This document shows positions 30,801-54,500 of a DNA stretch of 64,000 bases, piece after piece; position 1 is the stretch's first letter, and every line of letters starts with the position of its first letter. The stretch lies in assembly GCA_023078555.1 (NCBI GenBank), contig CM041201.1, forward strand, positions 1,929,713-1,993,712, in the 5' to 3' direction. The stretch comes from Ulva prolifera (taxonomy: Eukaryota; Chlorophyta; Ulvophyceae; Ulvales; Ulvaceae). The position numbers were made by a program, and so were the translations under genes. The notes under the pieces are model-generated. The model was given only the letters and a program-made list of their open reading frames with translations. It was not told the DNA's origin and did no database searches.

Positions 30801-31319
30801 GACGCAGCTGCGTGGCCGGGCGCGGTCGCCTGACAATCTCAGCCAGAATAGTCCGATTGCTCTGTGTGACCGGGCCCGGCGGCCCAATTTTGTCCTTCAG
30901 ACCTCCCAGGCAGGTGCGACCGCTTGCAGCGCTCTCGGGAGGTAGCAGCAGATCCTGCATGCGCCATCGGCATGTGGTCCTATGGTCTCAGAGTCATCAG
31001 TGTCCTGCACAGGAAATGGCTACGTGAATCGTAATGTACTTGACTGCATTGCCTGACCCTTGGCGGAGTGAGAGTCCACGCCCACGACAGTGGGTTGCCG
31101 GAGTGCAGGGCGTATGTGCACCATCTGCTGGACGCGAAGGAGATGCTGGCCTGGGCGTTGCTGGAGGCCCACAATGTGCACCACATGCAGTCGTTCATGG
31201 CCGCGGCGCGGGCCGCCATCGCGCGGGGGGGGCTCGCCGACTTTGCGGATGGCGTGGAGGCCGCACAGCCGCTGGCGGCCGCGCCGTGCCCGGGCAAGGC
31301 ACCCGCCGGCGATGCGTAG
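27870..31319 (+). CDS. QTRT2: Queuine tRNA-ribosyltransferase accessory subunit 2
   Basis: QTRT2 pairs with catalytic QTRT1 to exchange queuine for guanine at the wobble base of GUN-anticodon tRNAs. Four plus-strand exons chain in exact phase: 28913-29433, 30052-30223, 30533-30730 and 31109-31319 (stop TAG). They give a TGT-type barrel: VHFSAVTGAQVITP, ADETTAHLSKRRAENSAKRT, GYYIAGQGLGESAQEW, VLEQLRLGFDVIES, then the zinc site GCTCMACTRHTRAYVHHLL and EMLAWALLEAHN. Where QTRT1 has its catalytic Asp-Cys after the GxDLF segment, this protein has Glu-Ser, as expected for the non-catalytic subunit. The 27870-27948 exon (ARAGVL..LATPALLLNTR) matches the family N terminus. The 28308-28412 exon (LMRALQ..PPIHVNTPHW) is plausible, but I could not join it in phase, so the 5' half is incomplete. 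The start codon is unplaced. Confidence 0.88.
29785..29855 (+). repeat. R4 dispersed repeat in QTRT2 intron
   Basis: A diverged R4 copy: GAGGTCCCGTT, GCGGAGTCATCAATGGCC, ACGGATACTG. Compare the copies at 23128-23186, 30990-31062, 41945-42015 and 42180-42245. Confidence 0.4.
30990..31062 (+). repeat. R4 dispersed repeat in the last QTRT2 intron
   Basis: Copy of the R4 pattern: GTGGTCC..GTCTCAGAGTCATC, AGTGTCC, ATGGCTACGTGAATC, GTACTTGACTGCATTGCCTGA. The same intron position in block C also carries it (42180-42245). Confidence 0.6.
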
Positions 31320-32810
31320 CCGTGTGGGGAGAGAGAGAGATACAGACTCTGTACCTCTGTATCACAGAAAGAGACCTTGTGGGTGAGCGTGGCGGTGGCG
31401 AGAGAGGTGCCGCTGGAACACGCGCTGATGAGTGAGGGTGGCTGCTGGTGCAGTGGCGAGTGAGTGCAGGATGTAGGGGACGATGGTCGGTCGAGGGCAT
31501 CACCAGCCGACAGCTTGGCCGGGGCATCAGAAGCTTCTTCTCCCGTCTTGAGGCGAGAGAGGTGCCTCCCAATCCTCATGCACACCAGCTGTTGCTGCGG
31601 CGTCTGTGCAGGGTTGGGCCATCGACCCCCTTCACATAGCACAATTTCGAATAATCAGCTCTAATTTCTGGGTGGTAGCCCTGGAAATGCTTCTGCGTCG
31701 TCACTCTTGAAGGGTGTGCCGCATTTGTCACAACGCAGGCCTGGTCTTCTCACTCGCAGCACAAATCTCGGCGCGTTGCCATTGCTGCTTTAGCTCGCAC
31801 TGTAAAGCCTGTGTACAGAAGCGGGCTTGTAGAGGCTGCCCTGTCCAGCCTCCACCTCATGCGTCAAATTGCGTGTCGAGGTAGCCGGCGTTGCTGTGCT
31901 GTGTGCCGAAGGTAATGGGCTAGCTCTGTGATCACTGCAAAAACTAAATAAGACATTGTTTTGAAGTCATAAAGATGTGTACTGTCGTTCGGTGGACAGC
32001 TTGCGAATACACAATGCATGTGAGACTTCGCAAGCACTGCTGTGGGCTGTTCTGGTCACACTGTTACGAGACCCAAACAGGAACGGGCGTGGCCGCAGTA
32101 AAGCCCACAGTACATGCAGTACTTGTCAAGGACACCAAGCACTTCTTCCATAGGAACTGAAATCAACCTCATGAGCACATTGCTTGAAAGCGTTTGGGTC
32201 GCTAACAACCACAGCCCGCGCGCCACATTGTAAAAAAAAAAAAAAACACCACATTGTTTCACTCTGCTACGGTTCATGACCATCTTTTCACACTGCCAAG
32301 GTCCTCTCTGGCAACCAAAGCACTGTAGCGTGATCTTAAAGGAGATCTACAGGTGTTAAGGCAGATTACAAAAGGTCGGGCCATTGTGGCAGAGCACCAG
32401 CACAAACAGCAACACATTGCCATCAAAGCCATCAACGGAAGGCGAGTCATTCGGTCTCACTGTGCAAAGCACAGAGCAGCTTCAGCATACAGGCACTCTG
32501 CAGCTGCATCATACATGCACACAACACACGCACCCGCTACTTCTCAAACTTTCTGGCAGGACTAGGGCCTATCCAGGCTAGTGCATCCCGATTGGGCTTT
32601 GGCAAAGATGGTTAGATTTGGGCACATCCCATGGCCGGCGCAGCCGGCACCGGATATTCTGATGCGGATCCACCGCACCCCTGCCCAGACCTCTGGGAAC
32701 GTAGTCCAATCCCGCAGAATTGTATGCAAAGGTTTGACGACTCCCGGTGAAAATGCAAATTACATCGGGATGTCCTATGGGAATCAGGTGGCCGATTGAA
32801 ACCTACACCT
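31320..32810. other. QTRT2 3' flank and downstream sequence of block A
   Basis: No exon supported. It starts with a GAGAGAGAGA run after the QTRT2 stop, shared with the flanks at 42508 and 47200. The segment CGTTTGGGTCGCTAACAACC (32190) recurs in block B at 36590. Confidence 0.6.
32223..32257. other. Poly(A) patch between 9-bp direct repeats
   Basis: A run of 15 A (32232-32246) is flanked on both sides by CCACATTGT (32223-32231 and 32249-32257). The equivalent site in block B near 36620 has a single CCACATT and no poly(A). This looks like a tiny insertion with a target duplication, for example a 5'-truncated retrocopy reduced to its tail, though strand slippage cannot be excluded. Confidence 0.45.
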
Positions 32811-32817
32811 GTACATG

Positions 32818-33288
32818 TCAGCTGAAGTGCCTTGTAGGTTCGACTTGCCCAGTCGAACACACGAACAACAATGCGCCGAAACACATACTGGGCCCACCAA
32901 TACCCCAAGCGACACTGCATACTGCATCATCGAACTTTTGGCACGTCGTCATAATGCTTGACGCCATAAACAGAAGTGCTCCTATAGTGGTGAACGTTGA
33001 AGGCAGCATTGTCTTCGCAAACACCAAAGGCTTTGACCGATCCCACGTGAAGTCCCTCTCGACTTCAATGTTCTTGTATCGACTGAGTACAAAACCCAGA
33101 CCGGCAATGGAAAAACCAAAGGCGTCAATGTTGATCATGAGACACGCGCTCCACATGCCGCCGTACCAACGTCGCTCGCTAGCGTCAAGGTGGCTCACGT
33201 CGCTGGTGAGAGCTGTCATGCAAGCTGAAACGATAAGAGCACTGACCAGCGCAAACGTCTGCCACAGGCTCTTCAGGTGCTCATGCAT
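32818..33288 (-). CDS. Four-helix membrane protein, family copy A
   Basis: Function unknown and I do not recognise the family. The 156-residue frame starts MHEHLKSLWQTFALVSALIV and has four hydrophobic stretches (about residues 10-27, 40-69, 95-112 and 120-143), so it is probably a small integral membrane protein with both ends on the same side. Conserved blocks shared with copies B, C and D are HEHLKSLWQTF, the Asn-Ile-Asp of ACLMINIDA, GLGFVLSRY, the acidic loop EVERDFTWDR, and AKTMLPS. It has no intron. Upstream, copies B and D read in frame through GEESRRD into MHEHL. Copy A has lost one base in that segment, so its ancestral start (M at 33473) is out of frame and only the inner Met can be used. 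It may therefore be shortened or on the way to a pseudogene. Confidence 0.6.
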   Translation of the reverse strand: MHEHLKSLWQTFALVSALIVSACMTALTSDVSHLDASERRWYGGMWSACLMINIDAFGFSIAGLGFVLSRYKNIEVERDFTWDRSKPLVFAKTMLPSTFTTIGALLFMASSIMTTCQKFDDAVCSVAWGIGGPSMCFGALLFVCSTGQVEPTRHFS

Positions 33289-33719
33289 GTCCCTGCGGCT
33301 TCTTCGCCCCGTTCGTCCCCACCATGTTGTTGTGCAACATGTCCTTCACCCTGTTGAACCCCACCCGGTACTGCTTCACCCTGTGGTCGGTCTTCAACCG
33401 GTGGATCCTCACCATGTTGTCGTCCTGCACCCTGTTGAACCCTACCCTGTACTTCCAGACCCTGTACGACCATGCTGCCTTCGCTCTGCACAAAGAGGGG
33501 GCATGTTCGCGGATGACATGCGGCATTAACATCTCGAGACATGTCGTCCCAGTCGTCCGGACTTGCAATTGTCAATACATGTCCCGAAATCATGTGGCTG
33601 AAGATCTACTTCACTGTACAATGTGTATTGTTCTGCCCCGTCGCGCTCCCATGGCGGGCCACATGCCAACGCATGGCTGACAGCATCATCGCGGCATGAC
33701 AATTGACTTAATTAAGTGC

Positions 33720-34460
33720 AAGGCCGGCCATCTCGGCGAATGGCACAGCGATTGCCGGCACCGCCACGCAGCGGACGGGGCCACGCGCGCGGGCAAGTAG
33801 TGACCACCGCCAACACCGAACCAGGCAGGCAGCCAGGGCAGGGGCGAGCCGCCGCTCGGGTCGGGTGGCCCGTGTGCGGCGTGAGGTCATCGGTCGGGAC
33901 CGACATGTCGCTGCAGCCCCGTCGGAACTGCCTTGCTGCCCGAATGGCATGCCATTAGCGGGGCAGCGGCATGCACCTGCCAAGCCACCGCACGGCATAC
34001 AGAATGTGTATGTGTTCACAGTACACATGTTCACGGGCCTGTGTGCAGTTTGTACATGCACATGCATGCATGTGTATTCATACAGTCACCACAGACTCAT
34101 GTGCATCGCTATAGCTGGTGCCATCACCATTGCTGGGTGTTGAGTGATGTGCATGGGATCACACCCACAGGCGGTATCCCGGACGGCGTCACACGGTGCT
34201 GCAAGCGTGCAGTACGTACTAGCTCACGCAATTGCGGTCCACCTTCGCGAAGCTTCGTGACCGAAACTCTGCGCGTCGGCGCTGGCTGACCTCGTGTGTT
34301 CTGCCCGGCTCAAGCGAAACTGCGCACAAACCGTCATCATGGACATCTGATTCAGTGCTGAAGCACCTGTGCAAACTAATCTTGATCCGTGCTATCCGCG
34401 CGGATAGCACGCGCACCACGCGACGGGACTCCCGTCGTCACGGGAGTCTGGCCGCTATCT
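33720..34460. other. Conserved non-genic segment of block A
   Basis: Similar to 43980-44700 in block C, to 38040-38660 in block B and, in part, to 48590-48840 in block D. Open frames differ between copies and carry stops and frameshifts, so I see no conserved protein. Confidence 0.6.
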
Positions 34461-34474
34461 CAGAGGTTCGAGAT

Positions 34475-35021
34475 CAGAGAATATGTACAAAATATTTTTG
34501 TTTGTCCCGGGCTGTCAGAGCCTCTCTCAATTTCACATCTGAGTACCCGCTCTGACTTTTCAATTTGCCCGGGGTGTCAGGTGCACTTTTTTTTGGTGCG
34601 CGGAGTGAGGGGCTCCTCGTCGCTTACCATACACGGACGAAAGGCTTTCACATGCAACAACACTCGGAAAAAGCAAAATGCATATGCTTAAACCTTACTT
34701 GACTCTACGCGCGGTGTATCACACTCCTTTTGCAAGCAGTCCAGTCAACCGGTCCACTCCAGCCTCCATCTCAGCCCTACTGGCACATGTCACATCATCC
34801 AGGTTTCTTAAGTGCAAGCCCAAAAAAAAATTCGCACTCCGGGAAGCTTTCTGGGATGGCGCGGAGTACTCCGGTAGAGCTCCTCGCAAACGCGCGGCTC
34901 ACGCCGCGCATTTCCTCGTCGGCCCACCGGAGTACCCCGGCGCCGTCCGGAAAAACTGCCCGGAAATTAAGCAAAAAAAAAATTTTTTTGCCCCGGCTTT
35001 CCGGCGGACTGTAGACCACTG
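34475..35021. mobile_element. hAT-like MITE, 547 bp, block A insertion
   Basis: One end reads CAGAGAATATGTACAAAATA and the other, on the minus strand, CAGTGGTCTACAGTCCGCCG, so both ends start CAG and share a TACA motif. It is flanked by TTCGAGAT (34467-34474) and CTCGAGAT (35022-35029), 8-bp duplications with one mismatch. Blocks B and C lack it at this site. A relative in the opposite orientation lies at 45053-45726. No coding capacity. The CAGTGG ends with 8-bp duplications fit the hAT superfamily. Confidence 0.8.
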
Positions 35022-35029
35022 CTCGAGAT

Positions 35030-35900
35030 AGCGTCGGTCGACGTGATGCCAGATGCCCGATCACTCACTTCAACATCGATTTGAAGCAACCTGCCTTCAA
35101 GCTCTTCAGACTGACGTCGGCCGACTTGGTGATACTCAGGTGTGGTATTCAGACAAGGAGTGTTGGAGGTCGAGAGCAGTTCGGCCGGTGTGCGCACGCT
35201 CACACTGTGAGCCTCACAGTGCAGCTGACAGACGCGTACGGTAACGGTACTCGCGAGATCAAAATCAGTACTGGTACAGCACATACATGAGTCCCACTGA
35301 ATGGCGCGTAGGACTATGGGCAGGTGCAGGTTCTTATACTCTATGCCAGTGGCCACGGCATGCCGTATGCAGTCTGTCAGTACAGTTCAACGCTTTTCAT
35401 GACAACGAAATCTCCCTCGTGGCTACAGGCGGTCATGATGCTCGTCTCCGGTCATGCATGATGCAGAAGCAAGCACGGTCCAGTCAACATCTCAGCGTCC
35501 AACATGGGGGTTGCGTACTCCCGCTGGAGATGTAGAGCATGATCAAAATCGGCCGCGAGACGATCGAATTTTCAAGCGCACGCCAACCGTTGAGTCAGGC
35601 TGCGAATGAAGATGATGGTGGCACTATGGTGCTGCAGTGCGCAATGTGATTCACGCAACCACGCGCTGATTACGACGCGTCGTATGAGGCATTCCTCGCG
35701 GTCGGATGCGTGCGAAGTTCGACCACGAATAATAATTATGGTCTTCGCAGACCGGCCATGCGGTAGCGCAGGATGCCAGAACGACAATGACAGCTACAAG
35801 AAGGGTTTTTGTACGGAACGCGGGCTTGGCACATCAGGATACGAATTTGAAGATCTTCAAAGGGTATCCAACGGCAAGCAACGTGCGGTCTGCCATGGCC
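35030..35900 (+). pseudogene. Decayed coding fragments of an unknown secreted-type protein (block A)
   Basis: Short translated pieces are conserved among blocks but interrupted. FKLFRLTSADLVIL and LTVQLTDAYGNGTRE (35090-35260) match block B (LTVQMTDAYGDG at 38790) and block C (LTVQMTDAYGNGTRE at 44850). VQFNAFHDNEISLVAT (35380-35430) matches VQFNAFHDNKITFVAT in block B. The DAYGDG pattern is common in extracellular beta-sandwich domains, so this may once have been a secreted protein. No copy keeps a full frame. Confidence 0.4.
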
Positions 35901-36239
35901 ACATCATGATGGTGCACAAACAATTGAATGTCTACAGGTGCGCATGTCCGTGAGTCTTGCGGAACAGCAAGCTTATGCACCGCAGAAGTTGCCATTCTAC
36001 ATGCCTGGTCGTCCGTGGTCCGCACAATCCATGGCCATATCAATCAAGAAAACAGCACACGGTATTGCGTCGGCTGCATGCAGCCTGTACAGCAATGATG
36101 CATCACCTCCGAGCGCTGGCTGGCCCGGTCCCATCCCTGCGCACCACTGATGGCAATGGCATGCATCACGTTTAGGGAGTTGTGGAGGCAGAACCCTGCT
36201 CGGATCCGTCGACCCACACGTACCCCACTGCGGAACACA

Positions 36240-36500
36240 CAGCGTGCACGCCCCACACGAGCCCTCCGCCCTGATCATGAAGGCCGATGCTCAGATCACG
36301 CACCCGACGGTCGCAGCAATCGTACATGCCATGCACGATTGCATGGCAGGTGCATCCTATATATTCAGCGAATAGAATGCACCTACACAGGTGTTTTCCT
36401 CGCCGGTCACGGCCTCAGGGGATTGGCACGGGATTGACGGCCCTTGTGGCAACGGCTCAGCTGGACTTGCCGCCGGAGCGGCCACAGCCTATGGACTCCC
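36240..36500 (+). pseudogene. QTRT2 fragment, block B (intron 2 end and exon 3)
   Basis: Similar to QTRT2 30052-30150: an acceptor CACAG at 36386-36390, then GTGTTTTCCTCGCCGG..., ...CTGGACTTGCCGCCGGAGCG. The codon for Trp in GESAQEW is TGA here, and further shifts follow. The sequence before it (ATGCTCAGATCACG) matches the 3' end of QTRT2 intron 2 near 29990. Exons 4 and 5 are not found in this block. Confidence 0.7.
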
Positions 36501-37357
36501 ACACGGCCTAGTACGAGTCCATGGCAGTGCAGGCAGTGAGACTGCCGTAGGAACTGAAATTAACATCATGAGCTGATTGAATCGAAACGTTTGGGTCGCC
36601 AACACCCACATCCCGCGAACCACATTATTTAGCTCTGCGCTACGGGTCGATCACGTATACGACAAGTTTTCCAAACTGTCAGCGCCCACGGGAGTGCACG
36701 TGCGGCAGTGCGCGCACCGTTGTAACGCTGCCAAAGCGATGTCTCCTTGCAGGAGCGTGACGAATTCCTTAAGGCATACCACCGTGTGACAGTAGTTGGG
36801 ACCGTTGTGGCGAGTACTAGCTGCAGCATGAACGGTATATATATGTTGCCGTCAACAACAATGGCACAGGCGAGTTGTTGGGTGTGACTACGCAAATTAC
36901 ATGCCATACAACGGTTCACGGCGATATGTTGCCGTTCATGCTGCATGTGTACAGAGTAGGCTCGACCGTCCCGCAGGCCGTGACACACAGGCACACTACA
37001 CATCCATCATACGTGCAAACCCCACCCCGCTAAAGCTTTCCAGTGAGCCCGGGGCCTGTGCATCCCGATCGGGCTGTGGCAAAAGATGGCCATGGCCAGG
37101 TCTGAGCACATCCCATATATATGGGATGCATGACCGGCACAGCCGGCGGCGGAAATCCTGATGCGGCTCCATGGCACCCCCGTCCAGACCTCTGGGAACG
37201 TGCTATAATAATGTATTCCCACAGAATGACATGCAAAGGATTGAACACTCCTGGTGAAAATGCAAAAGTTACATCGGGATGCCGCATTGCATGGAATGAA
37301 CTTAAGTACCACGTGGCGTGTATTCAAATGTACTATAGGAACTTGACTCCTCACACG
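36500..37357. other. Block B sequence between the QTRT2 fragment and gene B
   Basis: Matches block A 32150-32800. Shared pieces include CGTTTGGGTCGCCAACA, GATGCGGCTCCATGGCACCC, CAGACCTCTGGGAACGT and GGTGAAAATGCAAA. No exon supported. Confidence 0.6.
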
Positions 37358-37873
37358 TCAGCCAAGGTGCCCAGTTGGGTCTTTTTGCGAGGTCACCAAT
37401 GCAAACAACAGCGCACCAACGACCATACTCGGCACACCAATACAGAAAGCGACACTGCCTACTACTCGTCCGAACTTTTGGAACATTGTCATAATGCTCG
37501 CGGCCATAAATACAAGAGCCCCTATGGTAGTGAACAGTGAAGGGAGCATTGTCTTCCAGAACAAGCCACGTTCTGCACGATCCCAGCTGAAGTCTCTTTC
37601 GACTTCAGCGTTGGTGTATCGACTCAGTACAAAACCCAGGCCAGCAATGGAAAACCCAAAAGCGTCTATGTTGAGCATCAAACACACGCTCCACAAGCCG
37701 CCGTACCAACACTGCGCGCGGGGCGTAAGGTTGCTCACGTCGCTGTTAAGCGCAGACATGCACGCTGACACGATAAGAGCACTAACGATCCCAAACGTCT
37801 GCCACAGGGTCTTCAGGTGCTCATGCATGTCTCTGCGGCTCACCTCGCCCTGTTGTGCCTCGAGTACATCCAT
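37358..37873 (-). CDS. Four-helix membrane protein, family copy B
   Basis: Function unknown. A 171-residue intronless frame with an intact N terminus: MDVLEAQQGEVSRRDMHEHL, then LKTLWQTFGIVSALIV. It has the same four hydrophobic stretches as copy A, the NIDAFGF and GLGFVLSRYTN segments, the acidic loop EVERDFSWDRAE and KTMLPSLFTTIGALV. It ends TSQKDPTGHLG. The start at 37873 is the Met conserved at the same alignment position in copies C and D. It is closest to copy A by eye (both have FGFSIAGLGFVLSRY where C and D have FSVVGLG.VLRRYSN). With no frameshift or stop it looks like a functional gene. Confidence 0.72.
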   Translation of the reverse strand: MDVLEAQQGEVSRRDMHEHLKTLWQTFGIVSALIVSACMSALNSDVSNLTPRAQCWYGGLWSVCLMLNIDAFGFSIAGLGFVLSRYTNAEVERDFSWDRAERGLFWKTMLPSLFTTIGALVFMAASIMTMFQKFGRVVGSVAFCIGVPSMVVGALLFALVTSQKDPTGHLG

Positions 37874-38079
37874 GCTGAGGTTACCTCACTCTGCACAGCA
37901 AAAGAGTACGCTCGTGCATGTGGTGCCTATGCGGCTTGGCCGCCAAGCCCATATGGGGGGCTATCACAAATGCATTATCTGGAGTTGCCAATATACACAT
38001 GTAGCACAGGGTCTGGTCCTGTATGCAAACTGCATGTGGCACATGCATGAATTCACACACAGAACGTTGTCGTCACGTT

Positions 38080-38206
38080 AACCATGGCTGCAGACGCGCA
38101 TGCATAGCTTAAAGAAGAGCGAACGGGAGAAAACAAACACTGAAATCGAATCTCTTCCGAATCAACAGCAACATACAACCATGGCTGCAGACGCGCATGC
38201 ATAGCT
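38080..38206 (+). mobile_element. R1 insertion flanked by a 30-bp direct repeat
   Basis: An R1 unit (38110-38176, core GAAGAGCGAACGGGAG, distal TTCCGAATCAACAGCAACAT) lies between two identical 30-bp copies starting AACCATGGCTGCAGACGCGC (38080-38109 and 38177-38206). In block D the related GCATGCATAGCTGA stretch occurs once, without R1. The repeat is longer than a normal target duplication, so the mechanism is unclear. Confidence 0.7.
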
Positions 38207-38743
38207 GAGTCTGGGTGTACAAAGGTGTGCATGGGAACATCATGATCATATACATCGATATGTGATGCCGGTACCGGTATACCGGTACGTACCGGTCTGC
38301 GATTCGCGATCGAGACGAGTCGTCGTACGTGATTTGGCATCAAGGAGTGAACGTTCACCTCGGTGCACGGGTTCACACCTACAGACCGTGTCTCGGCGCG
38401 CCGGACGGTGTGTTGCAACTGAAAGCGTGCAGTACGTACTAGCAGCTGGCACGCAGTGACAGTCCACCGACGCGCGCGCGGATCCTCGAGCTAAGCTCTG
38501 CGTGTCCTCGCCGGCTCCTCTCTTGTGTTCTATCCGGTTCAAGCTGCACTGCGCACAAACCGTCATCATGGGCGTCAAATTCGGTAATAAAGCACCGGCC
38601 GCGGTGCAAATCATGACCGTGCTATCCGCGTACCACACGACGGGAGTGTGCACATGTGGCCTCAACCGATATCGAGATCCCGGCGTGTTTTGTCTTCTTC
38701 CGTTAGCTCTTTTGTGATATGTCCCTGAGATGTCGACGAAGGA

Positions 38744-39031
38744 GTGTTGGCGGTCGAGAGCAGTTCGGCCGGCGTGCACACGCTCACAGTGCAGATGACA
38801 GACGCGTACGGTGACGGTATACTCGCGAGATCAGAATCAGCAGAACTGGTACACCACATATCCGAGTGGTACAGAATAGAGCGGAAGGAAGAAGGGAAGG
38901 TGCAGGCCTTTTTAAAGTCCTTAAATTTGGCATTTGAGCCACATGCAGCCTACCTCCTCGAGATAACAGTACAGTTCAACGCTTTTCATGACAACAAAAT
39001 CACCTTCGTGGCTACAAGCGGTCCAATCTAA
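38744..39031 (+). pseudogene. Best-preserved copy of the block's secreted-type fragment (block B)
   Basis: A 95-codon open frame reading VHTLTVQMTDAYGDG, then SEWYRIERKEEGKVQAF, then LLEITVQFNAFHDNKITFVA and a stop. Blocks A and C have the same segments but broken. The order, a DAYGDG strand and then a VQFNAFHDN strand, suggests part of a beta-rich extracellular domain. I found no splice sites or upstream exons that complete it, so I treat it as a remnant. It could be a short real exon. Confidence 0.35.
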
Positions 39032-39419
39032 ATGCTCGTCTCCATGCATGATGCAGTAGCAATCGCGGTCAACATCTCAGCGTCGGACATGGGGGTTGTG
39101 TGCTCCCGCTGGACATGTATGAGATACAGCACATAAACAAAATCGGCCGCGAATCGTAGTTTCAGGCGCACGCTGACCGTTGATTCAGGCTGCGAATGCA
39201 TATGCTGCTGGCACTAGCCTATGGTGCTGCAGTGCGCAATGTGATTCACGCAACCACGCGCTGATGTCAACGCGCCGTATGGGGCGATCCTCGCGGTCGT
39301 ATGCAGTGCTCTACATCCCGCCGGGATTCCCGCCAAAACAAAGCTTTTGTATGGACATCCCGCAACGGGTGAGCTTGGGGCAGCGGGATCGCCCGCTGGA
39401 AACGGGCCGTTAGAGCAGA

Positions 39420-41940
39420 TGTCAGCGGGCTTAGCCCGCTGGCAGCTGTTCTACTCTTTATAATGACGCCCGCGGGCTTTCCCGCTGGAGTATGCATCAC
39501 ACGAGGCCAGCGAGCGGGATGTTGTGACCGCAAGTGAAGCGAGCGCGCTAGCTTGGGCAGGTCCACAACATGCAGTGCACAGTGTCCGTACGGGCCCACT
39601 GCACTACGACTTCGACTGGAGTGGGCAGTGCTCCACTGGGCACCCGGAGGGCTGAAAACCGGGGTTTTCCGGGTGCTCGAAAAAGACTTCAGCGCCACGC
39701 GAACGGTGTTCTTGACAGTGACTAGCTGATCGACAATGGGAGAAAAGGTGCTGCCCGCCTTGCTGCCTTTGTCCTTGAAAACATTCTTTGTGGCATCTCC
39801 GGTTGATCGGCGTGCGCTTGCGCGGTGCTGCCGTGCGTAATATGTGTGTGAGTTTGTCCGTGCATGCAGCGGTGTGGAGTGCATGTGTATCACGTCTGGC
39901 TGCGGTCGCTGTGCTTGACGACTGAGGAAGTCTCTACTACCTGACTGCAGTGTTTTCTGATCGTCTCGCTGACAGCCGATTCGTGCACGGGGTCAACTGG
40001 TCTCGAGCTCGGTGTATCTTGTGCGTTCTGAAGTTGCAAGTGCGGGTGATCAAGCGTGCTCCTTGCAACTGATGGTCTTCGTGTCGTATGTTGAATCTTT
40101 TCTGGGCCTTCTGGCTGGTTTGGGGACCACGTCGGCTGTAGGTGTCTGTTGTGAGTTGGGACTGTACATGTGTGTAGCGCGCGGTGGGCCAACTGTCACG
40201 AGTCGCTAGCACAGTGCTGCAAACATGCCATTGATATACCAGGCTATCCAAAGCTTCATTGTTCCGGGGGATTTCATCGTTGTTCCTGTAGCTGTTCGGT
40301 GGTACCGACGTCGAAGGAGTGTGGTGCAAGGTGATTGCCCCCTCCCCAGATAGTATACCGTTGGCGATGATTAGGCTGCGCGTAGTCAATGTACTGCGTT
40401 GATAATGTGTTGTGGCTTTCTCGTTGGGAGCGCATTCCTGACAGGTGTCTCCCAGCCTGCCTTGTTGAGTGTCGTCAGCCGCACCTGCTAACGCGACCAC
40501 CAGCGTGCAATGCTGGTTGCGACCCGGACCGCACTGGTAACGACGCACAATATACTAATACGATGAATGGATGCTTACGTACCTCGTTTAAGCCTGGAAT
40601 ATGCGCGTTTACGATGGATCGCGTTACCCGGAAGTGGGCTACTCCGGGCGTAGCAAGGTATTTTGCCGGGTGAACACTTTCCGGGTGATACGATAAGCAT
40701 CCAGAAATCACGCATGAGCGGTGTATCGGTTGGCATGTATGGCAAGTGGAAACATTACAGCATTGTCACATCGCCTTGGCGCCACGGTCGCCGTGCTGTA
40801 CCAGCGCTGGCATCGGGCACCCAAATGCAGGACTGCGCCGTGCACACGATTCAACACGACACAACAAAAAATACTGGCGACTGTGCTCCTTCCTCTGCTT
40901 TGCATCTGGTGTGAGCCGCAGTCGCTCGAGGCTGGATGGTGACTCCTCCATTGGTGAGCCGTCTCCAGCCTGCACTTGGGATACTTTTACAGTAGGCGCA
41001 GTAAAAGCGGGCCATCGTGCTCATCTGAGCGCACAACTGCTGAAATTCGAATCACAGAGAAGACGAATACTCACCTTGCGGTGCTTGTGTCAGGTCAGTG
41101 GTTGTTGCACCTGCGAAGTTGAATTGGTCTCGATTGCCATAGACTGCACAAGTGCTTAGACACTCTGGTCGTTGCCCTGCACCAATGTTCACATACGAAA
41201 CAGCATGTAATGTCAGCCTCATGTCAGTGCCACCGTTGGCTGCCTGCAACACATCACTTGCAGAAGCATACCTAGTATCTCATGCTGATATGTCAGATCT
41301 GCCTTAGGCTGGGTCTCATGCTGAAGCAAAAGCTGATCATCCGGGGAGGCACCTGTACGTATCAGCAAGAGTGAATGCAATAGCTAGCCCAGAACCTGGC
41401 TTGTTGCTCCAACCTGTGGAGGTTCAGGAGATTGCTGAGGCGTTTGTGCAATCTGTTGTTGATAAGGCACACCTACGCTGAAGTATCAGCAGCTTCATGT
41501 TGCCTCAATCAGGCAAAACATCTGCATGCTGGACCCCCCTGCACGCTTGACCTCGCCAAACGGTCTAGCCTGATCTCATGGTCAGCTTCCACAGAGTGGA
41601 GGAGCGCTCTCCGGCCGATCCTTTATCATAATCATCATGATGCATTTTCAACGAGACCAGACAGCTGGCAACGTCCTCACGATACACGTCTTCGGAAGAA
41701 AGCATGTAGAAATCAATGTTGATTGCATCAACGGAGATGCCCCATCAATCGGCCTAGTTCTTCTCATCCTGAGGCGTCGCGCCGGTTCAACAACGATCGC
41801 TTCGACAAACTGACATGACGATTACACAGCTACATCTTGCGACAGTCGTTCCGCAGGAAGCAGCTGTTGTTGGTATGGTTCAACATCGTGGTACTCTTTG
41901 CGGGGCTCGAAATTGCAGCACTGCAGCTGGTGATCACCTA
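39420..41940. other. Non-duplicated stretch between blocks B and C
   Basis: No supported exon. It contains short perfect hairpins (CAGCGGGCTTAGCCCGCTG at 39423-39441, AACCGGGGTT near 39658) and a reverse R2 fragment near 39735-39790. Confidence 0.45.
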
Positions 41941-42296
41941 CGGTGCCAGAATTGTCAGTGTCCGGCTCAGGATACGGCTAAGTGAATTCAATTGTACTTG
42001 ACTGCGTCGCCTGAAATCTCAGCCGGAACAGTCCAATTGCTCGGTGTGGTCGGGCCTGCCAGCCCCGCATTCTGTCCTTCAGGCCTCGCGGGCAGTGCGG
42101 GCGCAGGCAGTCGCGGGATGGCCCCTACGACCACACGCCGGGGGATGTGACAGCAAACCCGGCATGCGCCAATGGCACGTGGTCCTCCGGTCTCAGAATT
42201 GTCAATGTCCTGCCGAGGATATGGCTAAGTTGACTGCATCGCCTGAGCTTGGCAGAGCTCGCGCCCGGGACACGACAGCGGGGTTCCGGTGTGCAG

Positions 42297-42507: not shown

Positions 42508-43028
42508 CCGTGTGTACAGAGAGAGACAGACAGGGAGGACTGGTAGGAGGCTCTGGCGGTGGCGAGGGAGGTTGGGAGCCGACGGCAGTGAGTGACGGAT
42601 GCGATCAGTGCGAGAGGGAGGGAGGGCACGCTGCCGGCGGTTGGATTGATGTGCGGTCGACCGCGTGAGGAGCTGGCAGTCGTTCCGTGTCGTAGGAGTT
42701 CACATGTTAAAGCGAGGCCGTGCCAGGCTTGCTGCAGCGAGAGAGCATGCGCAATGAGAGGATGGTGTGAGAGCAGGACAGCACATGGTGGCTCTTTGGC
42801 AACGGGTGCGTGGTCAAGGAGGTCAGGTGACCTGAGGTTGCAACATGTGCAGGTTCATGCTCCACACACACATCGCCCGAGCCACAAAAGGCTGGCCTCA
42901 ACGATGTGTACATGCCAGTGCCACATGCTTTGGCTTACATTCAATGTCGATCTCCGACCATGTATGAGTTGCCTAACCATGGGCTGGCGAGCTCTACGAA
43001 ACATGCGACGGAGACTTGTGCAAGGCGC
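42508..43028. other. Flank between the QTRT2 exon copy and gene C
   Basis: Starts with the GAGAGAGACAGACAG run seen after the QTRT2 stop. No exon supported. Open frames here are short and unsupported. Confidence 0.5.
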
Positions 43029-43685
43029 TCAGTCCGACCCCGGCCCAGGGCACGCACACCGGCGCACAGCTGCAACACAGGACTGCACAGCTGCAACACA
43101 GGATTTCCATTTCTCTGTGTTCCGGATTTTCGTGGTCACACCAAAAAAAATTGCCGTGCCAAAAATCATACTTGGCACACCGATACCACCACAGACCCAG
43201 CATGCTGCTTTACCGAATTTGTAACATGCTGTCAGGATGCTTGCTGCCGCAAACAAAAGCGATCCTACTGTAGTGAAAGCTGATGGGAGCAGTGTTTTCG
43301 CAAATTTCAGAGATTCTGCGCGATTCCAGCTGAAGTCCGCCATCACCTCAGCATTGCTGTACCGCCTGAGTACGAACCCCAGACCAACAACAGAAAAGGC
43401 AAGAGCGTCGATGTTGATCATGAGGCATGTGCCCCACAAGCAGCCAAACGCTGATTGCTGGCCACTACTGAGGCCGCCCACGTCGCTGTTCAGAGCTGTG
43501 ATACAAGCTGATACAATCAGTGCATTGACAAGAGCAAATGTCTGCCACAGGCTCTTCAGGTGCTCATACTCATCCCTGCGGCTTTCTTCGCCCCGGCGTG
43601 CGTCTCCATTATGTGGTTGCCCACCCTGACTTTGGTTTAAATCCTGCTCTCCGCCTCCCCATCCGTCGACACTGTTTACGTTCAT
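43029..43685 (-). CDS. Four-helix membrane protein, family copy C (longest)
   Basis: Function unknown. From the conserved Met at 43685 (MNVNSVDGWGGGEQDLNQSQ) there is a longer, polar N-terminal extension before RRGEESRRDEYEHLKSLWQT, where HEHL has become YEHL. The four hydrophobic stretches are present, with CLMINIDALAFSVVGLGFVL, the acidic loop EVMADFSWNRAE and AKTLLPSAFTTVGSL. The C terminus runs past the point where copies A, B and D stop and ends with a short duplicated SCVAAVQ / SCVAAVR segment and CPGPGSD. The frame is open and intronless. An upstream in-frame extension to 43934 exists, but its sequence matches non-coding upstream sequence in block A, so I prefer 43685. Confidence 0.7.
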   Translation of the reverse strand: MNVNSVDGWGGGEQDLNQSQGGQPHNGDARRGEESRRDEYEHLKSLWQTFALVNALIVSACITALNSDVGGLSSGQQSAFGCLWGTCLMINIDALAFSVVGLGFVLRRYSNAEVMADFSWNRAESLKFAKTLLPSAFTTVGSLLFAAASILTACYKFGKAACWVCGGIGVPSMIFGTAIFFGVTTKIRNTEKWKSCVAAVQSCVAAVRRCACPGPGSD

Positions 43686-43979
43686 GCTGACTTTGCTCTG
43701 CACAAAGAGGGGGCACGTTCGTGGACGACACATACGCGGGAGGTCTTGGGACATGCCGTCCTGGTCGTCCGGACTTGCAATTGTCAATACATGCTCAGGA
43801 AACATATGGCTGAAGATCTGCTTCACTGTGAAATGTGTAGCATATGCATCTGGTCCCGTCTCGCTTCCACGGCGGGCCACATGGCCAGATCCGAATACAT
43901 GTGCGCATGCGCATATAGCCAGATCTGTGCACACAGTCGATCGACTGACGGCATCTCAAGAAAAGCTTTGCGGCATGCC

Positions 43980-44700
43980 GAGCGCAAGGCCGGCCATCTC
44001 GGCGAACGCCACAGCAAGTGCCGCCACCGCCACACAGCGGACGAGGCCACTCAGGCGAGTAGCGACCGCCACCAACAGGCAGCCAGGGCATGCATGGGCG
44101 TGCCTTCGCTCAGGTTGGGTGGCTCGTGAGCGGCGTGAGGTCATTGGACGGGACCAACAGCCCCACCAAAAGTGCCTTGCCGCCCGCATGGCGTGCCATC
44201 AGCGGGGTAGCGGCTTGCACCTGCCGAGCTACCGCACGGCCTACACGATGTGTCATGCATGTGTGCTCGGTACACAAGTTCACAGGCCTGTGTGAACGAT
44301 TTGTGCATGCACGTGCACATGCATGAATTCACACAGTCACTAGAGACTCACGTAGCTACGTAGATAGCTATAGCTGATGCTGGGTTTTAGTGAGGTGCAT
44401 GGGAACACACCTACAGACGGTGTCCCGGACCGTGCGGTGCAAGCGTGCAGTACGTAAACAGCCGTAAACGTACTAGGTAGCTAGCTAGCTCACGTAATAT
44501 TCGCAGTCGACCTTCGCGAAGCTTCGCCACCGACTCTCCGCCCGGCCTCGCTGGCTGACCCCTTGCGTCCTGCTGTCCTACTCAAGCTGCACTGCGTACG
44601 CACCGCCGTCATGGATATCCGATTCAATGCTGTAGCACCTGTGCAGATCTTTGTCCGTGCTATCCGCGCATCACACGACGGGAGCCTGGCCACTATACGT
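43980..44700. other. Conserved non-genic segment of block C
   Basis: Counterpart of 33720-34460. Frames are not conserved between the two. It contains a GTAGCTAGCTAGCTCACG patch absent from block A. Confidence 0.6.
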
Positions 44701-45050
44701 GATGCCAGATGCCCGATCTCTCACTTCAACATCGATGTGAAGCATCCTACCTTCAAGCTCTTCATACCGACGTCACCGGACTTGGTGATACACAGGTGTG
44801 GTGCTCAGGCAAGCGCTGTCAGAGGTCGAGATCGGTGTGCACACGCTCACAGTGCAGATGACAGACGCGTACGGTAACGGCACTCGCGAGTGCAGAAGCA
44901 GCGTGCACTGGTACACCACATATGCGAGTGGCATACTGAACGGGGCGAAGGGCAGCGGCAGGCCTTCTATAGTCTGTGGCATGTGTGCCATATGCTAACA
45001 GTGCATTTCAACGCTTTTCAGGACAATACATCACCTGGGTGGCTACAGGC
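44700..45050 (+). pseudogene. Decayed secreted-type fragment, block C
   Basis: Carries HFNIDVKHPTFKLFI (44720-44765) and VHTLTVQMTDAYGNGTRE (44840-44895) in different frames. The VQFNAFHDN piece has mutated to FQRFSGQYITWVATGG and is cut by a MITE at 45053. Confidence 0.4.
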
Positions 45051-45052
45051 GG

Positions 45053-45726
45053 CATGAGTCTACAGTCCGCCGGAAAGTCAGAGCCAAAAAATATTTCATT
45101 GCAAACTCCGGGCAGCTTTCTGGGACGGCGCCGGTGTTTCGGTGGACCGACGAGGAAATGCGCGGCGTGAGCCGCGGGTTTGCTAGGAGATCCACCGCCG
45201 GCGGAGTACTCCGCACCATCCCAGAAAACTGCCCGGAGTGCGATTTTAAATTTTTTCCTGGCTTCGAGTTGCACCAGTAAGTCTGGATGATGCGACATGT
45301 GCCAGTAGGGCTGAGATGGAGGCTGAAGTGGACCGGTTGACTGAATTGCTTGCAAAAGGAGTGTGATCATCGATGCACCGCGCGAAGACTTGGTGTAAGG
45401 TTTAAGCAATCGAATTTTGCTTTTTCCGAGTGCTGTTGCGTGTGATAGCCTTTCTTCCGTGTAAGGTAAGCGACGAGCGAATGCGAGGAGCCGGTAAGGG
45501 ACGAGCGCGCGCCAAAAAAGAGCCCAGGGGCCAAAAAGAGCCCCTCATGTGAGGGCCCTCACGTGAGGGGCTCTTTCCTGGCGCGCGCGGAGTGCCACTC
45601 CGCGCGCGCACCAAAAAAAAGTGCACCTGACACCCCGGGCAAATTGAAAAGTCAGAGCAGATACTCCGATGCGAAATTCAGAGTGGCCCTGACAGCCGGG
45701 GGGAAAAAATAGTTTGTACACCACTG
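45053..45726. mobile_element. hAT-like MITE, 674 bp, block C insertion, inverted
   Basis: Exactly flanked by ACAGGCGG at 45045-45052 and 45727-45734, an 8-bp target duplication. Block A has the same site uninterrupted near 35429 (GGCTACAGGCGGTCATGATG). The ends read CATGAGTCTACAGTCCGCCG and, on the other strand, CAGTGGTGTACAAACTAT. It is the inverse of the 34475-35021 element plus an internal palindromic stretch (near 45545-45600, CCCTCATGTGAGGGCCCTCA). No coding capacity. Confidence 0.85.
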
Positions 45727-46623
45727 ACAGGCGGTCTTAATTCTGTTTATGGTATTTGGCTTCTCCCGTTCTCTCTTCTGCAACATATTCTGCTCGTCTT
45801 CCTGCTGATCTGGTCATGCATGATGCAGTAGCAAGCACGGGCAGCATCTCAGTGCTCAACACGGCCGTGCACGGGGGACTGTGTATTCCTGCTGGACATG
45901 TAGAGCATGAGCAAAATCGGCTGCGAAACGATCGAATATTCGAAATGTCAGGCGCACGCCGACCGGTACCTTTAATTCAGGCGAATGTATATGCTGGTGG
46001 CACTATGGTGCTGCACAATGTGATTCACGCAACCACGCGCTGATGACGAGTCGTCATTGACGCGTCGTATAGGGCAATCCTCGCGGTCGTATGCGTGCGA
46101 AGTTCGACTACGAACAAACAATCAGTATCAATCACGGTCTTTACAGACCAGCCATGCAGTAGCGCAAGATGCCAGGACGACAATGACAGCTAACAGGTGA
46201 GATTTTGTGCGGAATGCAGGTCTGGCACATCAGGAATTGTAGCTGAAGGTAAGCAACGTGCGGTCTGCCACAGACAATTGCAATCATGAATGTCCACCGG
46301 TGCGCGTGTCCGTGTGTCTCGAGGAACAGGAAGCTTATGCACCGGTTCTGCGGAAGTTGCCGTTATAAATGCCTGGTCGTCCCAGGTCCACAAAATCAAT
46401 CAACACAACAACACAGGGTGTTGCTTCGGCTGCATGACGCCTCCGAGCGCTGGCCCGTTAAAATTTCCATCCCTTCGAAGGGAATTCGCACCACGCATCA
46501 TGTCTATAGGGACTCCCTACTAGCTATAGTACTCGGAGTTGGCGCAACTCGGTCCGGCGGCGATATCAGAACCCTGCTCGGACCCACACCTCACTGCGGA
46601 ACACCTCACGCACGCAACCCACA

Positions 46624-46628
<5 letters not shown>

Positions 46629-46670
<42 letters not shown>
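46629..46670. repeat. Pure C tract, 42 bases
   Basis: The longest homopolymer in the window. It lies in the block D copy of the QTRT2 intron 2 region. The matching place in block B (CACGAGCCCTCCGCC, near 36257) has no expanded tract. Confidence 0.95.
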
Positions 46671-46672
<2 letters not shown>

Positions 46673-46773
46673 CCCGCCCTGGAGGCCAATGCTCAGATCA
46701 CGCCCCCTGCAGTCGCGGCAATCGTGCATAAATAGAATATTCATGAATATATATACTATATACACCTGCACAG

Positions 46774-47055
46774 GCAATTACCTCGCCGGCCACGGCCGTG
46801 GGGAATTGGCACAGGAGTGACGAGGCATTGTGGCGACGGCGCATCTGGACCTACCGCCGGCGCGGCTGCTGCCTGTGTGCGGCGCAAGCGCCCGCAGCCT
46901 AGCTACCTAGTTCGAGTCTAGGCAGAGCATGAGACCTGCTGTGTGAGGTGGAAGCGAAGGAGATGCTGGCCAGGGCGCTACTAGAGGCCCACAGCAAGCC
47001 CCACGTGCGGGCGCTCGAGCGTGATCACGGCCGCGGCATGGGCCGCCGTCGCGCG

Positions 47056-47093
<38 letters not shown>

Positions 47094-47199
47094 CTTAAGC
47101 AATTGCCGACCTCGCGGACGGCGTGGAGGCTGCGCAGCCGCTGGTGGCAACCCCATGCGCGGCCAAGGCACCCGCTGCCGCATGGCGGCCGATGAGTAG
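46774..47199 (+). pseudogene. QTRT2 fragments, block D (exon 3 and exon 5 remnants)
   Basis: After CACAG at 46769-46773, exon 3 reads NYLAGHGRGELAQE and then TGA at the Trp codon of GESAQEW, the same nonsense change as in block B. It goes on to DLPPARLLPVCGA. Exon 4 is absent. Exon 5 remnants follow from 46945 (EAKEMLARALLEAHS), diverge, are split by a run of 37 G (47057-47093), and end near GGCCAAGGCACCC..GATGAGTAG. It cannot encode a functional protein. Confidence 0.8.
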
Positions 47200-47670
47200 C
47201 CGTGTGGGGAGAGCGATAGGCTGAGAGAGTTGCAATTGCAACTCTGGTCGGAGGCTGGGGCGGTGGCGAGGGATCGATCCGGAGATTGGGCGGGAGCAGT
47301 CGCTGGTTAGTCATGGCTTCGAGCGGTGCCGGGGTCACTGTGGTGCAAGAGCGAGTGAGCGCAAGCTGCTGTCGGCGGGGACGATGTGCGGTCGACGCTG
47401 TGAGCCTCTGGCAGGCATGCACATGCCACATGGTACTGGGTGTCATATCATATAACTTATATGTAATTACATTGAATGCCGCTCTTCCACAGCTTGGTCA
47501 ATTGGGAAGCTGCCTGTGAAGTGGCCAGTGAACTCCGCATCCATGGTTTGCAATCGTGACGCACAGCTTGTGAAGACTTCACAGGAATTCTTAACCTCAA
47601 TTCCGGCGATGTGGCCAACTGCAGGCTTGCACATAGCTCGGCGTACAGCTGCAACACAGATGCCCAGTGT
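47200..47670. other. Flank between the QTRT2 remnant and gene D
   Basis: Begins with the same GTAGCCGTGTGGGGAGAG as the QTRT2 3' flank. No exon supported. Confidence 0.5.
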
Positions 47671-48183
47671 TCATCTGAATGGCGCCACCTGCGCGGACAC
47701 ACAGACAAACAACACCAGGCCAAACAACGTACTTGGCACACCAACAACGCTGGCGACAATGCATGCTTCAGTACCAAATTTCAGGCACGCTGTCAAGATG
47801 CTTGCTGCCATGAACAGAAGTGCTCCTAGAGAAGTGAAAATTGATGGGAGCATCGTCTTTGTGTAACGCCAGGGTTTTGCATGCTCCCAACTGAACTCCT
47901 GCGTCACCTCGGAATTGCTGTACCGCCTCAAGACGAGTCCCAGCCCGACGACAGAAAAACCAAGGGCATCGATGTTGACCATGAGACATGCGTTCCACAT
48001 GCAGCCAAACGCTCTGCGCTCGCGACTGCTAAGCTCGCTCATGTCACTGTTCAGAGCTGTGATGCAAGCTGATAGCATCAGTGCACTGACCAGCCCAAAC
48101 GTCTGCCACAGGCTCTTCAGGTGCTCATGCATGTCCCTGCGGCTTTCCTCGCCCTGTCGTTCCATGCTGACCTCTTTCTGCAC
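47671..48183 (-). CDS. Four-helix membrane protein, family copy D
   Basis: Function unknown. A 170-residue frame, MQKEVSMERQGEESRRDMHE, then HLKSLWQTFGLVSALMLSAC. The conserved start may be the inner Met (SMERQ, 48165), which aligns with the starts of B and C. The four hydrophobic stretches, NIDALGFSVVGLGLVLRRYS, the acidic loop EVTQEFSWEHAK and TKTMLPSIFTSLGALLF are all present, and it ends SAQVAPFR. No intron, stop or frameshift. It groups with copy C by eye (LRRYSN, TACxKFG). Confidence 0.72.
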   Translation of the reverse strand: MQKEVSMERQGEESRRDMHEHLKSLWQTFGLVSALMLSACITALNSDMSELSSRERRAFGCMWNACLMVNIDALGFSVVGLGLVLRRYSNSEVTQEFSWEHAKPWRYTKTMLPSIFTSLGALLFMAASILTACLKFGTEACIVASVVGVPSTLFGLVLFVCVSAQVAPFR

Positions 48184-48768
48184 AAAGATGGGGCCCCGTC
48201 ACGCATGACATATGCAGCACGTAGCACGACGCCAGGCATGTTGGCCAAGGGAACGTTGTTACATTGCAATGATATCATTACGGACATCGATGTCCGTAAT
48301 TGCCAATTTCCCAATGGATATGGCTAAGCAAGTCCACATGAAATGTACTCTACAGGTGTGCACACAACATACACGTGACTTGGCCCTGAGTTTGACGGAT
48401 TAGAGGTGGTTGCCGCTGGTTGCCGCGCGTGCTTTGGGTTCAACCCACAAGTTGTTCGTGCACTTCCTCGATGTCCTGGCGGTGCTACCGGCTCTCCGGC
48501 TTTTTCCTTGTAACACAACATACACGTGCACACGATCCTGGCCTGGCCCGTATGCACTTTGTACATAGGCTATGTAACATATATATAGCGCATGCATGAA
48601 TTGACAGAGTCACCAGACACGCATGCATAGCTGAGGCTGGGTGCGGAGCGGTGTGCACGCACCGGAACACACCCACAGGCAACGGCTTCTGCACAAATGC
48701 CTTGGACCTTCGGGACTCAATTGCTGCGCTTCCTCGCTCGCTGATCCCGTGTTGTCTGTCGAGCTCAA

Positions 48769-48818
48769 GCTACACTTGTTTGTTTCCTCCCGTTCACTCT
48801 TTTGTAACAGCTACACTT
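48769..48818 (-). mobile_element. R1 insertion with 9-bp direct repeats
   Basis: GCTACACTT at 48769-48777 and again at 48810-48818 flanks a 32-bp R1 core (GTTTGTTTCCTCCCGTTCAC..., reverse orientation). Blocks A, B and C have an uninterrupted CAAG...ACTGCG..CACCGTCATC or similar sequence at the same place. This is direct evidence that R1 is, or was carried by, a mobile unit. Confidence 0.75.
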
Positions 48819-48837
48819 CATACACACCGTCATCATA

Positions 48838-49090: not shown

Positions 49091-49099
49091 ATCTATCTA

Positions 49100-53698: not shown

Positions 53699-53733
<35 letters not shown>
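49100..53733. repeat. Five-unit satellite array, about 0.82-1.15 kb per unit
   Basis: The marker TCCGGCGGCT begins units at 49111, 49941, 50761, 51728 and 52552. Each unit contains CTGCACCTCTGGCCACGC several times, a GACCGACAGGCCCCCC..CGGGCC segment and CTTCATATCTA. Units 1-4 end with a hairpin (GAGCCCCCCGAAGGGGGGCTC at 49890, 50706, 51673 and 52494) followed by a TCTATCTATC run that leads into the next. Unit 5 is longer and ends with the same hairpin at 53680 and a pure TA run (53701-53733). Long open frames occur in all six frames and repeat from unit to unit, so I read it as non-coding. Confidence 0.9.
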
Positions 53734-53736
<3 letters not shown>

Positions 53737-53741
53737 ATGCA

Positions 53742-53815
53742 TTATAACAAAAGAGTGAACGGAAGAAGGCAAACGGTAAAACCGAATCTCATCCGAATCA
53801 ACAGCAACACACACA
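53742..53815 (+). repeat. R1 repeat copy, full length
   Basis: AACAAAAGAGTGAACGGAAG, GAAGGCAAACGG, then CCGAATCTCATCCGAATC and AACAGCAACACACAC. It lies at the right edge of the satellite. Confidence 0.75.
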
Positions 53816-54500
53816 CGATCACACTACAACCGCGAGCTTGATCCGCACGATCCGCGCGTCACGAGACGGCAGTCTGGCCGCTATGATGGTACATGACGGA
53901 CCCCTCAGTTCAACGTCCAGACAGAGGAAATTACCTTCAAGCTCTGCAAATTGATGTCGGCCGGCTGGGTGGTACTTGCGATGTGCAAATCAGGTAAAGG
54001 GGGCCATGTTATCCCGCTATAGCTAGCGCTGTAGATATCATATGGTGAGCAAATCGGCTGCGGATCTGAAGATGGCGATTTTTCGGGCTTACACCAATCG
54101 GCGAGCCATGGCGCCAGGCTGCGGATGCATATGCTGCTGCTGTCATGCGCCGTGTGATGAACGCAGGAATGCGTTGACGCGTTGGTTGGGGAAACCTCGT
54201 ATGCGTGCGAAGTTCAACTCGAATTCGTTACTGTCTGCATGCGGACCACGACACAGGCCATGCATATGCAGCCAGGCAGCCTACAATGCCAGACGAAGCT
54301 GATAGACGAAGAGCGTATGTATGGGGGACTCGCTTAGCCCATCAGCAAGCGCATTTGACGGTGGGCAACATGGGGTCTGACACGGACCATGAAATGTCTA
54401 CCGGTGCGCGTGGCCGTGTGTTTCTCGAGATGCAGCGTGCCTGCGCAACAGCTCTGCGGCAGTCGCAGTTCAGACATGCAAGTCTACAAACAACCTATCC
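53816..54500. repeat. Segmental duplication, block D (3' part)
   Basis: Resumes the block after the satellite: GATCCGCACGATCCGCGCGT, AGTCTGGCCGCTATGATG, then ACCTTCAAGCTCTGCAAATT (as in 35094), GTGAGCAAATCGGCTGCGGA (as in 45909), ATGCGTGCGAAGTTCAAC (as in 35707) and a diverged CGCAGGAATGCGTTGACGCG. The TDAYGNG and VQFNAFHDN parts are missing. Confidence 0.65.

Follow-up and report, generated by a model that had tools for sequence, protein, structure and literature searches.

Four tandem units beside QTRT2 in Ulva prolifera: a constrained membrane-protein-like gene whose genealogy differs from that of its flanks

Introduction

When a gene and its surroundings are duplicated together in tandem, do both afterwards share one history? 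This question is raised by a locus on contig C6 of the Ulva prolifera genome assembly (88.9 Mb, 44 contigs), contained in a window, i.e. the whole stretch analysed here, of 64 kb with a GC content of 57%. In this window, the 3' half of QTRT2, which encodes the non-catalytic subunit of the eukaryotic tRNA-guanine transglycosylase (TGT), is followed by four copies of a membrane-protein-like gene, hereafter M. An initial annotation had described four tandem blocks and suggested that selection kept the membrane gene while QTRT2 was a hitch-hiker. As shown below, the locus is of an ordinary kind, namely a tandem family accompanied by decaying pieces of a neighbour gene, albeit one with an instructive mosaic history. 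It provides a compact record of tandem-family growth, comprising a probable two-step duplication, repeats that are shared or not shared between units, and a gene kept beside decaying pieces. The genealogy of M disagrees with that of both flanks. The locus offers a testable example of selection opposing gene conversion, and it warns that inferring the order of duplication from coding sequence alone would be misleading in this case.

Four collinear units next to QTRT2

Self-BLAST of the window revealed four collinear units on the same strand at approximately 30.8-54.5 kb, each consisting of a 3' piece of QTRT2 (+ strand), an M frame of about 160 codons (- strand) and downstream sequence:

30825..36140 (right end approximate), + strand: unit A, delimited by self-BLAST, sliding scan and junction control
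36190..39309 (left end approximate), + strand: unit B, with a QTRT2 internal-exon piece at about 36400-36500, the M gene and a right flank
41937..46442 (right end approximate), + strand: unit C, delimited by self-BLAST and sliding scan
46560..48830 (left end approximate), + strand: unit D, left part, with QTRT2 pieces and the M gene
53740..54480, + strand: unit D, right part, past a repeat array; 54337-54470 corresponds to C 46225-46364, and 53884-53976 to A 35044-35136

Unit A is tied to B by the diagonals 32581-33313/37058-37854 (E 6e-130) and 35155-35713/38739-39309 (E 4e-119), and to C by 33465-34401/43677-44669 (E 2e-141) and 30825-31345/42006-42533 (E 1e-125), the latter starting inside the last QTRT2 intron. 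Units C and D are connected by 43158-43599/47719-48160 (E 5e-87) and, across the array, by the above-mentioned pair of segments near their right ends (E 6e-10). A local-alignment scan with 160-bp windows, in which only windows scoring at least 75 were reported, yielded scores of up to 284 for the common parts, as compared to a maximum of 42 among 60 shuffled windows. Adjacency, shared orientation and collinear homology that extends past the gene characterize the locus as a tandem segmental duplication. Thus, the self-comparison proposed along with the initial annotation returned diagonals in the order it had claimed, and the four blocks stand. Order and orientation are indeed the same in all of them; their QTRT2 content, however, differs from unit to unit, and of three sequence identities named as landmarks common to all blocks none is present exactly in four copies, as they occur twice (A, C), three times (A, B, C) and twice (A, B), respectively.

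The M gene is maintained by purifying selection

The four copies of M are:

32818..33288, - strand: M gene A, from an internal ATG at 33288; the shared ATG, here at 33473, is out of frame
37358..37873, - strand: M gene B, ATG at 37873
43029..43685, - strand: M gene C, ATG at 43685; lacks the internal ATG and extends beyond the stop of the other copies
47671..48165, - strand: M gene D, ATG at 48165

All four copies have a start codon in CAGCATG context at the corresponding position (33473 in A, 37873 in B, 43685 in C, 48165 in D). Copies B, C and D read in frame from this codon but A does not, and A would therefore have to start at 33288 unless it is spliced. The internal ATG is also present in B and D, and the extension of C past the common stop also matches D downstream of the stop of the latter. 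The upstream part of M in A (33288-33473) is enlarged by imperfect CAGGGTG-like repeats and is in another frame when read from the shared start.

Ratios of nonsynonymous to synonymous divergence (dN/dS) were calculated from an alignment of 158 codons, gapped columns excluded, of which the first five lie upstream of the only usable in-frame ATG of A. Over the six pairs, the ratios range from 0.25 to 0.46 (NG86), 0.20 to 0.55 (YN00) and 0.24 to 0.56 (maximum likelihood), and the proportion of nonsynonymous differences (pN) is below that of synonymous differences (pS) in 6/6 pairs (two-sided Fisher p 2.5e-4 to 1.8e-11). M is hence under purifying selection, with dN/dS clearly below 1, and the view that selection kept the membrane gene is borne out in every pair. 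One might object that the copies are relics whose open frames arise by chance: copy A is out of frame with the shared start, C lacks the internal ATG as well as the usual stop, and no Pfam family scores above its cut-off for M. This explanation is extremely improbable in view of four open frames, the deficit of nonsynonymous differences throughout and the behaviour of the alternative frames. Four of the five other frames were evaluated; two shifted frames on the same strand and one antisense frame gave ratios of 0.70-1.85. The other antisense frame is low (0.45-0.61), yet above the NG86 ratio of M itself in every pair.

Hydropathy analysis of M indicates four hydrophobic regions and an AlphaFold model of low confidence (pLDDT 65) contains four helices, predicting a four-helix membrane protein that is presumably translated and located in a membrane. 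The model has no PDB fold match at E<=0.001. Pfam matches all stay below cut-off: Peptidase_M48_N, the N-terminal domain of CAAX proteases, reaches 21.6 bits in A, 17.2 in B and 13.9 in D with a cut-off of 27 and gives no match in C, while MscS_TM and Orai-1 appear below cut-off for B and D, respectively. Relatives were sought in plasmids, IMG/VR, Pfam and PDB, with no eukaryotic protein collection searched; tblastn with copy C found none in plasmids, and none of 79 pattern-matching stretches in IMG/VR was confirmed. Genome-wide, queries D, A and C gave only four strong matches in 88.9 Mb, all at this locus. M copies are thus restricted to the locus, unlike the repeats inside the units, which are dispersed. 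Two candidates for a fifth copy were set aside as chance matches or relics, one at C6:2165734 (E 0.023, 34% identity over query positions 62-125, two stops) and one at C1:3082301 (E 0.6, one stop).

QTRT2 and the fate of its pieces

The parent of the QTRT2 pieces lies at the left border of the array:

28914..31319, + strand: parental QTRT2, 3' half, recognized by TGT-family matches (PF01702) and a predicted splice

Matches to PF01702 follow each other in order on the + strand at 28914-29156 (25.1 bits, slightly below the cut-off of 26.3), 30045-30221 and 31107-31256. The exon ending at 30730 would be spliced to the last exon at 31109-31319, the remaining introns being predicted likewise. The best PDB matches of the joined exons are QTRT2 chains (57.7 bits, E 1.2e-14); in this comparison, which covers the C-terminal 126 residues, the four top distinct PDB sequences are all QTRT2, and chains of the catalytic subunit QTRT1 match more weakly. 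A second TGT gene, with stronger matches, resides on contig C1. QTRT2 and M are arranged tail to tail, and in contrast to the parent the copies of QTRT2 are 3' fragments only. Unit B retains part of an internal exon and no recognizable last exon, unit C has the last exon only, and unit D has both, each of them damaged:

42297..42507, + strand: copy of the last QTRT2 exon in unit C, retaining the acceptor AG, the reading frame and a stop at the corresponding position
46736..47200, + strand: decayed QTRT2 remnants of unit D, with TGG->TGA in the internal exon, most of the intron lost, an interrupted last exon and poly-G at 47057-47093

The TGG->TGA change in the internal-exon piece is common to B and D, and the last exon of D is broken by insertions, among them the poly-G tract. 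This 37-base tract and a 42-base poly-C tract at 46629-46670 both fall within a span of about 470 bases on the + strand and could pair as an inverted repeat.

The expected decay of the QTRT2 pieces therefore holds for B and D; the copy in C, however, scores 47.0 bits with the TGT model as compared to 48.2 bits for the parent. In its core, i.e. the first 36 codons, A and C differ by five synonymous and no nonsynonymous changes (25 synonymous and 83 nonsynonymous sites, Fisher 5e-4; dN 0, dS 0.23), whereas the final 33 codons have accumulated two synonymous and nine nonsynonymous differences (dN/dS 1.8 on few sites). The dS of the whole exon is 0.15. Since the silent divergence of the core resembles that of the nearby intron (Jukes-Cantor distance, JC, 0.26), there is no need to invoke very recent copying from the parent gene, although few sites are involved. 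Comparisons of A with D gave dN/dS of 0.42 and 0.53, neither significant and with A itself constrained, and C versus D gave 1.25 over 20 codons, which is not significant either. On these few sites the QTRT2 piece of D looks unconstrained. A ratio near 1 among the QTRT2 copies, which had been anticipated, is thus not demonstrated. The proposed contrast in selection is largely correct, given the constraint on M and the broken pieces in B and D, while the exon copy in C has failed to decay in the anticipated way.

The genealogy of M conflicts with that of both flanks

In the gap-free codon alignment of M, quartet sites support the grouping AB|CD 28 times, AC|BD five times and AD|BC eight times; an earlier count over three windows covering M had given 28:5:6. 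This grouping leads in each third of the gene (10:1:2, 14:4:3 and 4:0:3), is favoured over both alternatives by the approximately unbiased (AU) test (p 0.001) and was recovered in 2000/2000 codon bootstraps. The flanks tell a different story. Triplets of A, C and D from three segments on both sides of M gave 172 sites joining A with C, 42 joining A with D and 41 joining C with D, as compared to 47:61:63 in M (flank versus M, Fisher 1e-11; third positions 4e-8). The left segment, which includes the last exon of QTRT2, follows the same trend (AC:AD:CD 42:14:21). Triplets of A, B and C likewise favour A with C in the right flank (AC 75, AB 49, BC 34) and A with B in M (AB 84, AC 48, BC 33). A scan along unit A locates the transitions: the unit is C-like at 30780-31420, B-like in windows starting at 32060-32140 and 32460-33100, near-equal at 33180-33260 and C-like from 33420 onwards. 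M accordingly lies in a segment with a genealogy unlike that of both flanks, the flank side being judged by triplets only. Quartet counts from the start of a multi-unit alignment beginning at A 30825 were excluded, as its first columns were misregistered for B and D.

In the pairs A-C and A-B, M moreover seems to be older than its flanks. Fourfold sites of M differ at 22/48 positions between A and C, in comparison with 198/898 flank positions (p 4e-4), and at 24/49 positions between A and B, in comparison with 138/627 in the flank (p 8e-5) and 75/287 in the 3' flank of M (p 0.002). Within pairs, the dS of M amounts to 0.52-0.66 and exceeds the JC distances of the A-C flanks (0.11-0.26 in six segments).

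Is exchange between units required to account for this conflict? Plain tandem duplication without later exchange, with the discordant trees resulting from poor alignment, unequal rates or selection on M, would be compatible with the gappy flank alignments, with B and D retaining so little flank that triplets had to replace full quartets, and with a part of the right flank of A that scores higher against B than against C. Moreover, as M is constrained, some of its sites could agree by convergence. Nevertheless, we consider this explanation quite unlikely, given that third positions carry the strongest AB|CD signal of M (17:2:3), that this grouping leads in every third of the gene, and that the A+C signal is present on both sides of M. 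In addition, the joins between units and a shared repeat, described below, tie A to C independently. Whichever of the two sequences of events considered below is assumed, exchange among the units has to be invoked, and the units are most likely mosaics generated by gene conversion.

A probable two-step duplication followed by exchange

The A/B join and its surroundings (36000-36520) can be aligned to the corresponding C/D region (46360-46905) over 436 bases (p 0.18). In a shuffle control, three parts were scored separately, namely the right-flank side, the left side and 100 bases spanning the join; each of them exceeded 300/300 shuffles, so that homology is present on both sides of the joins. 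A further link between A and C is provided by a repeat:

33636..33997, + strand: dispersed repeat common to A and C (C 43855-43887 and 43981-44240), without a counterpart in B or D at E 1e-3

The homologous joins, the start of C in the last QTRT2 intron, the TGA common to B and D and the repeat common to A and C suggest that [C,D] probably arose by duplication of the pair [A,B]. Accordingly, the description as four equal blocks misses both this probable pair duplication and the discordance of M with its flanks.

On this basis we consider the following history as a whole to be likely. The first event would have been the tandem duplication of a segment that started in the 3' half of QTRT2, included the convergent M and continued for several kilobases beyond it, yielding A and B. 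Later, the segment from the last QTRT2 intron to the end of unit B may have been duplicated as a pair, giving rise to C and D. Each of the four units would have retained M as a protein-coding gene, while the QTRT2 pieces of B and D degenerated and repeats arrived at various times. Subsequent gene conversion or unequal crossing-over between the units would have homogenised the flanks more than the M coding sequences. The genealogy of M (AB|CD) would thus differ from, and seems older than, that of the flanks (A with C). Homogenised flanks from which the M coding sequences were exempt would explain both the trees and the distances.

Several observations weigh against this reading. The gappy middle of the join, about 50 bases at 36140-36192, is not significant on its own (20/300 shuffles reach its score), and the junction is therefore not placed to the base. 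C and D show no excess of silent divergence in M (fourfold sites 11/48, JC 0.27; flanks JC 0.26-0.62), and each pair offers only 45-49 fourfold sites. Alignable flank is a biased sample, with about 8-40% gap columns depending on segment and pair and large parts that are unalignable, so that the higher silent divergence of M could reflect ascertainment, constraint on the flanks or local rate differences. Windows of A starting at 35180-35500 score higher against B than against C (164 versus 84 at 35340); C is split at this stretch by a repeat insertion, and when the insertion is left out the triplets favour A+C. Finally, the B and D flanks align too little for full quartets, and the comparison is made within one genome.

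Alternatively, M might have been homogenised within the pairs A-B and C-D after the pair duplication, with silent sites of M mutating faster than the flanks. This would agree with the grouping of M copies as neighbours, with the low fourfold distance between C and D, and with a 3' flank of M (parts of 32060-32860) that A and B share and that is unrecognisable in C or D. However, M distances larger than flank distances remain unexplained in this case unless the silent rate of M is at least twice that of the flanks on both sides, and the A-C dS of the QTRT2 exon is like that of the flanks. We therefore regard within-pair homogenisation of M as unlikely and prefer homogenisation of the flanks, which is nevertheless not proven. 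One may also imagine that the last-exon copy in C is still in use: for example, the parent might splice to it across A and B as an alternative terminal exon, or it might provide an antisense counterpart to the M transcripts. The array would then be tied functionally to QTRT2. In the same scenario, the four copies of M would encode functionally divergent proteins, and selection would spare their coding sequences from the homogenisation seen in the flanks. This combination appears very unlikely to us.

Relation to known systems

Tandem segmental duplications that include a truncated neighbour gene typically display units in direct repeat, a junction at which a 3' gene piece abuts the next unit, and pieces that decay. 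The present locus resembles them in all these respects and differs by its probable two-step pair duplication and by the undecayed exon core in C. In one literature search, none of the papers listed, eight of 33, contained the term queuine, from which we do not claim that none is in print. The closest precedent appears to be the gibbon L/M opsin pair. In that pair, coding divergence, both synonymous and nonsynonymous, is reported to exceed non-coding divergence, nonsynonymous divergence is not above synonymous divergence, and coding and non-coding trees conflict; its authors infer gene conversion in introns and purifying selection against conversion in exons (PMC3213168). Both loci comprise tandem duplicates with coding divergence above non-coding divergence, no excess of nonsynonymous over synonymous divergence, and conflicting trees. 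The opsin case concerns introns, two genes and population samples, whereas the M locus concerns flanks, four units and one genome, and only synonymous divergence was set against the flanks here. The likeness is drawn by our own analysis, and conversion at the M locus is read from the sequence as the most likely mechanism.

Repeats within and around the units

Further repeats lie inside the units:

34484..35022, + strand: dispersed repeat in A, with a copy in opposite orientation at another site of C (45058-45720)
35213..35504, + strand: old fragment resembling a long terminal repeat (LTR), 68% identical to 311-bp terminal repeats; also in B (38783-39084) and C (44846-45057 and 45809-45861)

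The opposite orientation and different site of the first repeat indicate that A and C probably acquired it by separate, later insertions. The 311-bp repeats belong to an LTR-like element of about 3 kb on contig C10 (L059; G000 C10:1408900-1414000, terminal repeats at 975-1285 and 3628-3937). They are direct repeats, 98.7% identical and 2.65 kb apart, and no stop-to-stop frame of more than 150 residues is found between them.

Two larger stretches interrupt the array of units:

39310..41936, no strand: spacer between B and C; 2169/2627 bases match other places in the genome
48831..53738, no strand: minisatellite (48831-49101) and satellite-like array splitting unit D; the satellite-like part matches several other contigs

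A host gene in the spacer that feeds the exon of C was thought unlikely in view of these genome matches. Four of five open reading frames in the spacer have no Pfam match at E<=1, and the fifth matches TC1 below cut-off (13.6 bits). Spacer positions 40968-41556 belong to a repeat family with at least 24 near-full-length matches at 68-71% identity. The satellite-like array consists of units of about 820 bp with internal repeats, the repeat array as a whole spanning 48.8-53.7 kb; a 1573-bp piece of it has at least 89 matches, this array included, on nine contigs, some of them in tandem. Outside the units, an open frame at 62250-63020 has a Pfam match to the C-terminal end of SLC35F, a family of solute carriers (24 bits with a cut-off of 21).

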